Positions 29,403 to 61,647 of a stretch of 64,000 nt of DNA are shown here, one piece after another. Positions within the stretch are counted from its first letter, which is position 1. Every line of letters begins with the position of its first letter. Under the pieces are notes generated by a model, which saw nothing but the letters and a program-made list of their open reading frames with translations, was not told the DNA's origin and made no database searches. A program made the translations under genes and the position numbers. Source of the stretch: Jiangella alkaliphila (GTDB lineage Bacteria > Actinomycetota > Actinomycetes > Jiangellales > Jiangellaceae); contig NZ_LT629791.1 in assembly GCF_900105925.1 (NCBI RefSeq), positions 992,001 through 1,056,000 of the forward strand. The letters are read 5' to 3'.

Positions 29403-29507
29403 GGTGCGGAGGGGGCGGTGGATGTGGAGCCGGCGTCAAGAGCGCCCGCGGCATGCTTCACCGCCGCGAAGCGGAGCCGGCGCAACATCCACCGCCCCCT
29501 CCGCACC
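29403..29507. repeat. 23-bp exact inverted repeat with degenerate internal repeats
   Basis: The 324-bp gap between the HAD gene and the DUF6918 gene holds no ORF I believe. Positions 29403-29425 and 29485-29507 are exact 23-bp complements around a 59-nt loop; the arms begin GGTGCGGAGGG. The core GCCGGCGCAACA occurs twice (29476-29487 and 29526-29537), with a related GAGCCGGCGTCAA at 29427-29439. It may be a strong transcript end for the serS-HAD unit or a dispersed repeat element. Confidence 0.75.
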
Positions 29508-46943: not shown

Positions 46944-48239
46944 ATGACGGACTTCGACGCGCCGGTGCGGCTGCTGGTGATCGGCGCCGGCAGCCGGGGC
47001 GGCAACGCCTACGCCGGCTGGTGCCTGCAGCATCCCGGGACGGCCGTGGTCACCGGCCTCGCCGACCGCGACGAGGCGCGGCTGGCCGGCGTCGGCGACG
47101 CGCACGGCGTGCCGGCGCAGCACCGCTACACCGACTGGCGGGCGGCGCTGTCCCGTCCGGGTCCCTGGGACGCCGTCGTCGTCGCCACCCCGGACCGCAT
47201 GCACGTCGACCCGACGCTGCGGGCGCTGGAGCTCGGCTTCGACGTGCTGCTGGAGAAGCCGATCGCGCCGACGCCGAGCGAGCTGGACCGGCTGATCGCC
47301 GCCGCGAAGGACCGGCCCGGCGCGATCACCGTCTCGCACGTCATGCGCTACACGTCGTTCTTCAACGCGCTCAAGCGGCTGCTGGACGAGGGCCGCATCG
47401 GCGAGCTGCAAGGCGTCGAGCACGCCGAGCACATCGCGTACTGGCACTACGCGCACAGCTACGTCCGCGGCAACTGGCACCGGACCGCCGACTCCAGCCC
47501 GATGCTGCTGGCCAAGGCATGCCACGACCTCGACATCCTGCGCTGGCTGGTCGGCTCGCCGTGCATCGCGGTGTCCTCGTTCGGGGACCGGCGGCACTTC
47601 CGCATCGAGAACGCGCCGCCCGGCTCCACCGATCGCTGCATCGACGGGTGCGCCGTCGCGGCGACCTGCCCGTACAACGCGCACCGGTTCTACGTCGAGC
47701 AGCTGGCCGGCGTCGACACCTGGCCGGTCTCGGTCATCACCAGCGACCCGTCGCCGGAGGGCCGGTTGAAGGCGCTGCGCGAGACCGACTACGGCCGCTG
47801 CGTCTACCGCATGGACAACGACGTCGTCGACCACCAGACGACCTCGCTGCGCTACGCCAACGGCGTGACGGCGTCGCTGGTCGTGTCGGCGTTCACCGAG
47901 AAGAACACCCGGATCATCACGCTGATGGGCAGCCACGGCGAGATCAACGCCGACCTCGAGGCCGGCCGCATCGAGGTGGTCCGGTTCGGCGACTCCGCAC
48001 CTGACGTCGCCGGCCTGCCGCCCGCCGCCCGGCACGTCGAGCAGATCGCCGACGATCGCGCCGGGCACTCCGGCGGCGACGCCGGGCTGATGGCCGACTT
48101 CGCCGAGCGGATCCGCCGGCGCCGGGCCGGCCTGCCGGTGCAGGCCGCGCCGAGCGCGTTCGAGGAGAGCCTCGAGAGCCACTGGGTCGCGTTCGCGGCC
48201 GAGCGGTCGCGGCAGAACGGTACCGTCGAGTACCTATGA
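46944..48239 (+). CDS. Gfo/Idh/MocA-family oxidoreductase
   Basis: A 431-residue NAD(P)-dependent sugar dehydrogenase. The Rossmann start is VRLLVIGAGSRGGNAYAGW, the family motif LLEKPIAPTPSEL carries the catalytic Lys, and the region around KACHDLDILRWLVG holds the substrate-contact His-Asp. A Cys-rich loop DRCIDGCAVAATCPYNA is common in one subgroup. Typical substrates are inositols, amino sugars and modified hexoses. Preceded by AAGGGTGAG and followed by the sulfatase with a 4-bp overlap, so it probably oxidises a sugar released in this pathway. Confidence 0.92.
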   Translation: MTDFDAPVRLLVIGAGSRGGNAYAGWCLQHPGTAVVTGLADRDEARLAGVGDAHGVPAQHRYTDWRAALSRPGPWDAVVVATPDRMHVDPTLRALELGFDVLLEKPIAPTPSELDRLIAAAKDRPGAITVSHVMRYTSFFNALKRLLDEGRIGELQGVEHAEHIAYWHYAHSYVRGNWHRTADSSPMLLAKACHDLDILRWLVGSPCIAVSSFGDRRHFRIENAPPGSTDRCIDGCAVAATCPYNAHRFYVEQLAGVDTWPVSVITSDPSPEGRLKALRETDYGRCVYRMDNDVVDHQTTSLRYANGVTASLVVSAFTEKNTRIITLMGSHGEINADLEAGRIEVVRFGDSAPDVAGLPPAARHVEQIADDRAGHSGGDAGLMADFAERIRRRRAGLPVQAAPSAFEESLESHWVAFAAERSRQNGTVEYL

Positions 48240-49684
48240 CACCGGACCGGCCGAACCTGCTGCTCGTCACCACCGACCAGCAGCGCCGCGACACCGTCGG
48301 CCCGCGGTCGCCGTCGTTCCTGCGCACGCCGCACCTGGACCAACTGGCGCGCGAGGGGATCCGGTTCGACGCCGCGTACGCGTCGACGCCGGTGTGCGTG
48401 CCGTCGCGGGTCACGCTGCTCACCGGGCAGTCGGCGCTGCGGCACGGCATGACGCACAACGGCCGCACCTGCGACGTGCTGGCGCCGGGCGCGCCGACGC
48501 TACCGGCCCGGCTGGGCGCGCTCGGGTACGCGACCGTCGGCATCGGGAAGATGCACTTCACGCCGCCGCGGGCGCACCACGGCTTCGAGCAGCTGATCCT
48601 GCCCGACGACTACTACCGGACCGGTGTGCCGGCGATGCGGCACGGGCTCGGGCAGAACGAGCTGTCGCCGGGCATGGCGACCGTCCCGGAGGCGGAGACG
48701 CTGACGTCGTGGCTGTCCGAGCGGGCGGTCGAGCACATCCGGTACCGCCGCGACCCGACCCGGCCGTTGTTCCTGTGGCTGTCCTACAGCAAGCCGCACC
48801 CGCCGCTGGACCCGCCCGAGCCGTACTACTCGATGTACCGTGACGCGTCGATCCCCGCGCCGGTCGTGGGCGACTGGGCCGGCGACGACGCGCCGGCCGC
48901 GTTCCGGCGGCAGCGGCACCGCGGCTCGTTCGACCTGCTGGACTCTTCGACGGTCCGGGCGGCACGCGCTGCGTACTACGGACTGGTGACGCAGCTGGAC
49001 TACAACCTCGGCCGGGTGCTGGCCGCGTTGCAGGACGCCGGCGAGCTGACCCGCACGACGATCGTGTTCACGTCGGACCACGGCGAGTTCCTCGGCGACC
49101 ACGGCACCGGCAACAAGGTGTTCTTCCACGAGGCGTCGGCGGGCGTGCCGATGATCGTGCGGCCGGCGGCGGGTACGTCGTCCGTGCCGCCCGGGACCGT
49201 GGTGCAGACACCGGTGACGCTGGCCGACGTGCTGCCGACGTTCGTGGCGGCGGCCGGCGGGCCGGTTCCGCCTGACGTCGACGGGACGGACCTCGTCGCG
49301 CTGGCCGCCTCCGAGCATCGGGAGCGGGTCGTCGTGGGCCTGGCCGGCGGTGACGCCGGGCCGCCGGGGCTGCCGTACTACCTCGCCATGACCGACGGGC
49401 GGCACAAGTACGTCTGGTATCCGGAAGGACCGGCGCAGCAGCTGTTCGACCTCGCGTCCGACCCGGACGAGCGGCACGACCTCGCGGGCTCCGCGGCGGA
49501 CGGCGACCTGGCCGGCTGGCGCGACCGCCTCGTCGCGGCGATCACTGACGCCGGCGGCGCCCACCACCTCGACGCCGGCCAGCTGCCCGCCGTCGCGCCG
49601 CTGAACGACACCGTCGCCGAACAGCGCGCGAGCGGCTGGCCCGGCTACCACACCGAGGCCTTCCACCTCGACGTCCGGCACTGA
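48236..49684 (+). CDS. Type I sulfatase (formylglycine-dependent)
   Basis: A 482-residue sulfatase. The signature CVPSRVTLLTG contains Cys54, which must be converted to formylglycine by a maturase (FGE) encoded elsewhere. Metal ligands appear in TTDQQRRDTV near the N-terminus and FTSDHGEFLGDHG. No signal peptide is present, so desulfation happens in the cytoplasm after uptake of a sulfated oligosaccharide or monosaccharide. The ATG overlaps the dehydrogenase stop (ATGA). It resembles arylsulfatase A/N-sulfoglucosamine sulfohydrolase-type proteins; phosphonate or phosphodiester hydrolases share the fold. Confidence 0.92.
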   Translation: MTPDRPNLLLVTTDQQRRDTVGPRSPSFLRTPHLDQLAREGIRFDAAYASTPVCVPSRVTLLTGQSALRHGMTHNGRTCDVLAPGAPTLPARLGALGYATVGIGKMHFTPPRAHHGFEQLILPDDYYRTGVPAMRHGLGQNELSPGMATVPEAETLTSWLSERAVEHIRYRRDPTRPLFLWLSYSKPHPPLDPPEPYYSMYRDASIPAPVVGDWAGDDAPAAFRRQRHRGSFDLLDSSTVRAARAAYYGLVTQLDYNLGRVLAALQDAGELTRTTIVFTSDHGEFLGDHGTGNKVFFHEASAGVPMIVRPAAGTSSVPPGTVVQTPVTLADVLPTFVAAAGGPVPPDVDGTDLVALAASEHRERVVVGLAGGDAGPPGLPYYLAMTDGRHKYVWYPEGPAQQLFDLASDPDERHDLAGSAADGDLAGWRDRLVAAITDAGGAHHLDAGQLPAVAPLNDTVAEQRASGWPGYHTEAFHLDVRH

Positions 49685-49695
49685 CCACCGCGTCT

Positions 49696-49766
49696 CCCCC
49701 TTTGCAATGAGCACCTATACGCACCACCCACGCGTGGTGCGTATAGGTGCTCATTGCAAAAGGGGG
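49696..49766. terminator. 27-bp exact hairpin between convergent genes
   Basis: Positions 49701-49727 are the exact complement of 49734-49760, with a 6-nt loop. Outside the stem, CCCCC (49696-49700) can pair with GGGGG (49762-49766) across one bulged A, so the dyad spans 71 bp. The stem lies between the sulfatase stop and the sigma factor stop, which it touches. There is no U run, so it may act as a structural barrier, a 3' end protector or a repeat element rather than a textbook terminator. Confidence 0.75.
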
Positions 49767-50705
49767 TCAGGGGAGTTCGGCGGGGAGGTCGAACGCGGGG
49801 AACAGCTCCGGGCCGAACGTGGTGACCTCGGCGATCAGGCCGTCCTCGACCCGGAGAACGTCGAGCTTGAACGCGGCGAACCCGCTCGCGCCGGGAGCGC
49901 GCAGGTAGCACGCGGCGGCCGGCATCCGGTTGGCGCTGGTCGGCAGCAGCCGCCACTCGCCGTGCTCGGCCGCGGCGGCGTGCAGGGGCGCCAGTGCGGC
50001 CCAGCCGTCGAAGCAGACCGGCTGCGGAGGCATGGTGACCCGGATGTCGTCGCGCACCAGCGCCGCCATCTGCGTGGCGTCGGGGCGCTCGGACAGGACG
50101 ATGTAGCGGTCCAGCAGGTCGCGCTCGTCGGCGCTGAGGCCGGTGCGGGGCGTGCTCGCCGGCGACGGCTGCTCGCGCTGCAGCGTCGCGCGGGCCCGCT
50201 GCAGGGCGCTGTTCACCGTCGGCACCGTCGTCTCGAGGATGGCCGCTGTCTCGGCGGCCGACCAGCCGATGGCGTCGCGCATCACCAGCACGGCGCGCTG
50301 CTGCGCGGGCAGCAGCTGCATGGTCGCGATGAACGCCAGCTCGATGGTCTCTCGTCCGACGACGACGGCGTCCGGTTCCTCCGTGCGCGGGGCGGCCTGG
50401 TCGAGCAGCACGTCGGGGTACGGCTGCAGCCACGGCACCTCGGCGAACGAGCTCAGCTGCTCGGGCCGGCGCGAGCGCTTGCGCAGCTGGTCGAGGCAGG
50501 CGTTGGTCGCGATGCGGTAGAGCCAGGCGCGCAGGTTGCTGCCTGGCTCGAAGGTGTCGCGGTGCGTCCAGGCCCGCAGCAGCGCCTCCTGCAGCACCTC
50601 CTCGGCGTCGTCGAAGGAGCCGAGCATGCGGTAGCAGTGCACGTGCAGCTCGCGCCGATGCTCCTGGATGGCTGCCGAGAAGTCGTCCATCGGGACATTC
50701 TGCAT
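49767..50705 (-). CDS. ECF sigma factor with SnoaL-like C-terminal domain
   Basis: A 312-residue sigma factor. Region 2 is CYRMLGSFDDAEEVLQEALLRAWTHRDTFEPGSNLRAWLYRIATNACLD; region 4 is LPAQQRAVLVMRDAIGWSAAETAAILETTVPTVNSALQRAR. After it an NTF2/SnoaL-like domain of ~120 residues (SERPDATQMAALVRDDIRVTMPPQP...) replaces an anti-sigma partner, as in the SigG/SigJ-like actinobacterial groups. The frame is open to 50786; ATG 50705, with GGGGCGAC ahead, avoids overlap with the divergent gene. Confidence 0.88.
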   Translation of the reverse strand: MQNVPMDDFSAAIQEHRRELHVHCYRMLGSFDDAEEVLQEALLRAWTHRDTFEPGSNLRAWLYRIATNACLDQLRKRSRRPEQLSSFAEVPWLQPYPDVLLDQAAPRTEEPDAVVVGRETIELAFIATMQLLPAQQRAVLVMRDAIGWSAAETAAILETTVPTVNSALQRARATLQREQPSPASTPRTGLSADERDLLDRYIVLSERPDATQMAALVRDDIRVTMPPQPVCFDGWAALAPLHAAAAEHGEWRLLPTSANRMPAAACYLRAPGASGFAAFKLDVLRVEDGLIAEVTTFGPELFPAFDLPAELP

Positions 50706-61575: not shown

Positions 61576-61647
61576 GTTGATCTTGGAGTTCTTCGCGTAT
61601 CTATCGGACATTCCACCCCGCAATTGCCGAACAACTCCAAGATCAAC
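61576..61647. repeat. 15-bp exact inverted repeat between convergent genes
   Basis: GTTGATCTTGGAGTT (61576-61590) and AACTCCAAGATCAAC (61633-61647) are exact complements; TTCG/CGAA extends the stem to 20 bp with one mismatch. The loop is ~32 nt and holds the palindrome GCAATTGC. The right arm contains the stop codon of the APH-like gene. The sequence is clearly less GC-rich than its surroundings. Confidence 0.75.

Follow-up and report, generated by a model that had tools for sequence, protein, structure and literature searches.

Rhizobial RIMEs and enterobacterial ERIC are intergenic palindromic repeats limited to a bacterial group. REPs are dispersed intergenic palindromes of 20-40 bp. According to PMC3733652, they are mostly found where neighbouring genes converge or run in one direction, at a short distance from 3' ends; some organisms carry several types and some families are species-specific. 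The words Actinobacteria, Streptomyces and Frankia are absent from the main text of that article. In PMC5292007, which also mentions Jiangella, the two occurrences of "palindrom-" belong to the spelled-out name of CRISPR and to the title of a cited work. Our literature search of titles and abstract beginnings found, among the papers listed, none on such repeats in actinobacteria, and our statement about absence in print extends no further than that material.

Here we describe a hairpin between two convergent genes in a 64,000-nucleotide stretch of the Jiangella alkaliphila genome (the window). With a probability of about 60%, we read it as a copy of a REP-like Jiangella family that acts as a two-way 3'-end element and is maintained in trans. 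We label the repeat family of this hairpin F1, and a second palindrome family, with AGTTGATCTTGGAGT arms, F2. G000 denotes the window's own genome, G001 to G011 the other Jiangella genomes compared (G006 is J. gansuensis), and L-numbers denote loci. Genes were called with a home-made gene caller, which also chose the start of the sigma gene. The features of the locus are as follows.

48236..49684, + strand: sulfatase gene (PF00884), upstream and convergent; its stop is 17 nt ahead of the 24-mer
49696..49700, no strand: CCCCC, left side of the outer extension beyond the bulge; not conserved in F1
49701..49727, no strand: left half of the 27-bp perfect stem, exactly complementary to the right half
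49702..49725, + strand: left conserved arm, TTGCAATGAGCACC-T-ATACGCACC (pattern match G000:C1:1041702-1041725, +)
49728..49733, no strand: 6-nt loop; the spacer between the 24-mers varies among copies
49734..49760, no strand: right half of the 27-bp perfect stem, exactly complementary to the left half
49736..49759, - strand: right conserved arm, the identical 24-mer (pattern match G000:C1:1041736-1041759, -)
49761..49766, no strand: bulged A (49761) and GGGGG (49762-49766), right side of the outer extension; adjoins the sigma stop
49767..50705, - strand: sigma-70 family factor gene, downstream and convergent (gene call and Pfam)

The initial annotation had described an exact 27-bp stem with a 6-nt loop that touches the stop codon of a sigma gene. 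Both halves of that description hold: the arms at 49701-49727 and 49734-49760 are exactly complementary, and the GGGGG of the hairpin abuts the stop, which reads TCA at 49767-49769 on the + strand. The gene label was also sound, as sigma-70 regions 2 and 4 of the product exceed the Pfam cut-off; a SnoaL match falls under it. The hairpin was correctly seen as less GC-rich than its neighbours (52% in stem and loop, 75-76% in the 500-bp flanks) and as free of a U tract, since no U-tract terminator was found on either strand between 49000 and 50800. RNA folding predicted -62.6 kcal/mol for the + strand and -65.8 kcal/mol for the - strand, and none of 200 shuffles was equally stable on either strand; folded as DNA, the hairpin gave -39.7. 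A stable hairpin past a stop codon is a trait of intrinsic terminators that this locus shares. The cruciform extrusion that had been proposed is possible, as with any perfect palindrome. A known RNA family was considered and rejected, as Rfam returned no match at the gathering score and the ten best matches were of microRNA type, as they are for any long hairpin. In 464 kb of G000, including the window, we counted 27 perfect stems of at least 14 bp (loop up to 70), compared with none in one block-shuffled control.

That the stem could be a repeat element, a further suggestion of the annotation, was confirmed. A genome-wide DNA search for the stem, the check that had been proposed, gave 88 matches to the hairpin in G000 (the query's own places included), and the pattern TTGCAATGAGCACC-N-ATACGCACC found 92 arms within 3 mismatches (66, 17, 8 and 1 arms at 0, 1, 2 and 3 mismatches). 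A reversed control pattern had no match in G000. The 13-base core TTGCAATGAGCAC is exact in 90 of the 92 arms. Facing pairs account for 84 arms (42 pairs, with 0 to 187 nt between the paired 24-mers), and 8 arms stand alone. We read 38 paired copies closely, that is, 76 arms: within the first 13 bases, a single arm has a single deviating base; the last five bases are invariant, and variation falls mainly at three intermediate positions. At the degenerate arm position, the two arms of a copy match in 28 of 38 cases, compared with 22.6 expected, which indicates covariation. Outside the arms, with both ends of the 38 copies pooled, only a T at position -1 (0.89) and C-richness at -2 to -5 (0.54-0.70) stand out. 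Pairing across positions -6 to -1 was 0.474, compared with 0.516 after permutation, which argues that the five extra G-C pairs of the window hairpin are local. CCCCC does pair with GGGGG past the bulged A, as had been claimed, but this outer pairing is at chance level across the 38 copies, and we dropped the outer stem as a conserved structural part.

Some of the larger F1 copies contain other, nested palindromes. By eye, L043, L176, L177 and L181 share a composite of about 185 bp in which F1 arms enclose a palindrome of the CTTGGCACG type, and in some of them the outer flank is partly repeated as well. At L183 in G001, eight left arms run in the same direction at a spacing of about 38 bp, together with one right arm.

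Copies of F1 favour the 3' ends of genes. Among the 38 copies, 18 lie between convergent, 14 between tandem and 6 between divergent genes, compared with 59, 231 and 55 among all 345 adjacent pairs of the same loci, a background drawn from loci chosen for holding F1. Gene 3' ends are closer (median 23 bp, n=50) than gene 5' ends (median 86 bp, n=26), and of the 14 tandem copies all but one are nearer to the 3' end of the upstream gene. F1 thus shows the REP trait of a dispersed intergenic palindrome near gene 3' ends. Like intrinsic terminators, it presents a strong hairpin just past stops, symmetric for convergent genes; unlike them, it has no U-tract and is one sequence repeated genome-wide. 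The initial annotation had suggested that the hairpin could end both convergent transcripts, and its position makes this plausible. The 6 of 38 copies assigned by our home-made calls to divergent pairs, where a terminator is unexpected, count against such a role.

The 12 Jiangella genomes carry between 0 and 143 F1 arms each at 2 mismatches. Forward and reverse arms number 45/46 in G000, 73/70 in G001, 29/28 in G010 and 8/8 in G006; the remaining genomes have few (G009 5/3, G007 3/2, G003 1/2, G005 1/2, G011 2/1, G004 1/0, G008 0/1, G002 0/0). In a class-wide sample of 393 genomes, 12 matched: 11 of the 12 Jiangella and one of 10 other members of the family, with none among the 371 genomes outside the family, so that a single match was found in 381 sampled genomes outside Jiangella. 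A tuned search, fitted to that matching relative from a second genus, covered eight genomes of the family. By hand tally it found 31 arms in G016, 26 of them with TTGCAATGCGCAC and with a mixed base ahead of the last C, and 36 arms in G018, 33 with TTGCAATGCACAC and 21 of the 36 ending in CGCAAC. G017 had one arm and the five other genomes none. We regard F1 as a Jiangella family old enough to sit at the same junctions in several species; another genus of the same taxonomic family has relatives of it that are spelled differently. As an intergenic palindromic repeat restricted to a bacterial group, it resembles RIMEs and ERIC.

Where copies are numerous, they are largely spelled alike. At nine shared junctions, 17 of 18 arms in G010 read CGCATC, with T at position 23. 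The spelling is CGCACC in G000 (T at position 23 in 0 of 20 arms) and in G001 (0 of 18 arms at eight junctions, seven of which are among the nine of G010), and elsewhere in G001 a few arms have CGCATC or CGCAAC among the matches listed. J. gansuensis mixes three or more spellings (GAGCAC, GGGCAC, GGACAC and others). The spelling is therefore genome-specific but not perfectly uniform, with mixtures in G006, G018 and some G001 arms, and on one branch the copies seem to have changed spelling where they stood. By hand count at the 3-mismatch limit, the 13-nt core is exact in 51 of 64 arms of G010 and in 3 of 19 arms of the low-copy genomes G003, G008, G009 and G011; at 2 mismatches only, exact cores numbered 0 of 1 in G004, 2 of 3 in G005 and 3 of 5 in G007. 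Exact cores are thus common in G000 and G010 and rare in those four low-copy genomes, which indicates that some genomes keep their copies alike while in others the copies decay.

Other palindromes are present in the same genome. The window holds an F2 copy at 61576-61647; F2 arms mostly start 59 nt apart and number 109 in G000, 202 in G004, 1 in G001 and 2 in G010. The four F2 copies in the G000 sample were all called convergent. An opposition between F1 and F2 copy numbers is striking in G001, G010 and G004, but was discarded because the overall rank correlation, calculated by hand, is near -0.2. A different hairpin at 29403-29507 has a near-constant inner part (GGAGCCGGCGTCAAGAGCGC...GCATGC...GCGGAGCCGGCGCA) and outer stems that differ between copies yet stay paired, which suggests a selected RNA or single-strand structure. 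It had only sub-threshold matches in Rfam. Further copies of this type are at L036 5136 and at L145 5739 and 8458 (G010), with a variant at L151 9746 (G002). Additional dispersed families in G000 occur at L121, L124, L128 and other loci, for example CCCATGATCATCAACCTTT, GTTGATCATGGAGAAGG and ATGGGTGAGCGTCTGC.

Orthologous intervals were compared for 18 F1 junctions of G000, mostly convergent or with short spacers; G001 was searched at the first 10 of them. At 10 of the 18, F1 is carried by G001 and/or G010, nine being placed by both flanks and L044 by one flank only. F1 is absent from G010, where read, at L012, L021, L024 and L034, and the comparison included no G001 or G010 interval for L009, L011, L017 and L020. 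In G002, G004, G005 and G008, F1 hairpins are absent from all 38 orthologous intervals, so these junctions manage without F1 there; a lone mutated arm persists in one interval, and the count excludes the window interval of G005, where an F2 hairpin is present. Many of the 38 are compact, with stops nearly touching.

At most junctions that lack F1, no other palindrome takes its place. The window junction is an exception, with three palindrome families over six genomes: F1 recurs there in G001, the palindrome CATGATCATCAATGATC... is present in G010 and G002, and G008 and G005 have a third, GTTGATCTTGGAGTT.... Replacement of F1 by another palindrome as a general rule was rejected, as it was seen only at the window, at L025 and, as a long inverted repeat, at L037 in G005. 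Convergent pairs carry a long palindrome anyway in 10 of 62 (G000), 6 of 56 (G010), 4 of 34 (G002) and 1 of 22 (G008) sampled cases.

The flanks speak to the history of these junctions. Over 30 bp, which include some coding sequence, the own junction was the best of 10 in 13 of 17 comparisons between G000 and G001 or G010; L027 (G010), L030 and L044 gave no best match to their own junction. In the unrooted flank tree, G001 and G010 are sisters, G008 groups with them at 100%, and G000 is on the other side. Local transfer of junctions between G000 and G001 or G010 was considered and rejected, because the near-junction flanks are no closer than those of G001 and G008. Five of 18 loci outside G000, G001 and G010 have a flanking gene with at least 65% identity to a gene beside a G000 F1 copy. 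Among copies at G000's sites, those of J. gansuensis (matched to L028) and G005 (matched to L040) have exact cores, and those of G009 (L180), G011 (L024) and G003 (L015) have mutated cores. An old family, retained in some lineages and lost in others, is the reading that fits most of these data, and we infer loss instead of repeated gain. The compact joins common to G002, G005 and G008 (identical in all three at L029, and in pairs of them at L014 and L037) are awkward for independent losses.

A single F1 pair was found in J. endophytica. It is flanked by an HTH gene and a PadR gene, and its locus corresponds to that of a G000 copy (L040 and L051). The PadR protein there is 100% identical over 111 aa, and blastn aligned the F1 arms and not the intervening spacer.

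From sequence comparison, F1 is probably a REP-like 3'-end hairpin that serves as a two-way terminator and is homogenised. Placed in a short spacer past a stop, often between convergent genes, it would let either transcript form a very strong hairpin, and it may pause or terminate both transcripts and/or protect their 3' ends. Copies within a copy-rich genome are near-identical and largely share one genome-specific spelling, which suggests that something in trans homogenises or selects F1. This trans-acting agent could work by gene conversion between copies or as a sequence-specific partner. Where it is missing, the copies would mutate and then be lost. More tentatively, and in our estimate improbably, the arms could be the recognition sequence of a co-evolving trans-acting system, with one spelling per genome; once the system is lost, the palindromes would mutate and be purged genome-wide.

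F1 might instead be a purely selfish, non-autonomous mobile palindrome of the REP or MITE kind, moved by some enzyme; insertions away from gene 3' ends would do harm, so that only copies at these ends remain. We consider this possible, if unlikely. The patchy arm numbers, the genome-specific spellings and the tandem and nested copies agree with it. F1 is dispersed, intergenic and near 3' ends in the manner described for REPs in PMC3733652. It is, however, longer than REPs, with two 24-nt arms and spacers that reach about 717 nt in one G006 copy, and has no conserved tetranucleotide tag; neither GTAG nor CGTC marks the ends of the 38 copies when both ends are pooled. The RAYT (Y1) transposase, a mark of GTAG-type REPs, was sought through its domain PF01797: 5 of 14 control genomes contain it, but no Jiangella genome among the 12 does, and a RAYT-driven REP was rejected on this basis. 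F1 is thus REP-like yet lacks two defining marks of REPs, the tag and the RAYT. With bacterial MITEs it shares terminal inverted repeats, as inverted arms around a variable non-coding interior; it differs in that the spacers vary between most copies (except in the composite group), and it may differ in that the alignments show no consistent target-site duplication and a limited search found no parent insertion sequence. At L012, L021, L024, L029 and L037, 2 to 16 bases of the compact junction belong to both flanks. These overlaps could be traces of short duplications, but their lengths are inconsistent, and non-repeat filler further sets filled junctions apart from compact ones. No recurrent neighbour gene emerged as a mobiliser: beside the subset of copies that was read, only shared loci and weak paralogue pairs (28-47% identity) recurred. 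The junctions common to non-sister genomes argue that many copies are not recent insertions.

It is more doubtful still that F1 is a DNA-binding site, at which a protein that organises the chromosome or regulates genes would recognise the bipartite arms TTGCAATGAGCAC-CNA-TACGCACC in double-stranded form. Invariant blocks around a variable 3-nt part would suit such a protein, as would the same-direction run of eight arms in G001, the lone arms in G000 and the copy, common to G000 and G005, that has HTH and PadR genes on its two sides. Against this, 84 of 92 arms are in facing pairs and the variable position pairs above permutation, and binding alone leaves the bias to gene 3' ends unexplained. 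An ordinary one-off intrinsic terminator would account for the position between convergent stops and the high stability, but is already refuted by the dozens of same-sequence copies, and the U-tract is missing.

Returning to F1 as a REP-like 3'-end hairpin, we see its upkeep mechanism as the interesting part, one that bears on how palindromic repeats lacking a RAYT spread and stay uniform. The 12 related genomes offer a ready comparison, with copy-rich and copy-poor species and with junctions that are the same but for the presence or absence of the repeat, and gene content that tracks copy-rich status would provide candidates for the trans factor.
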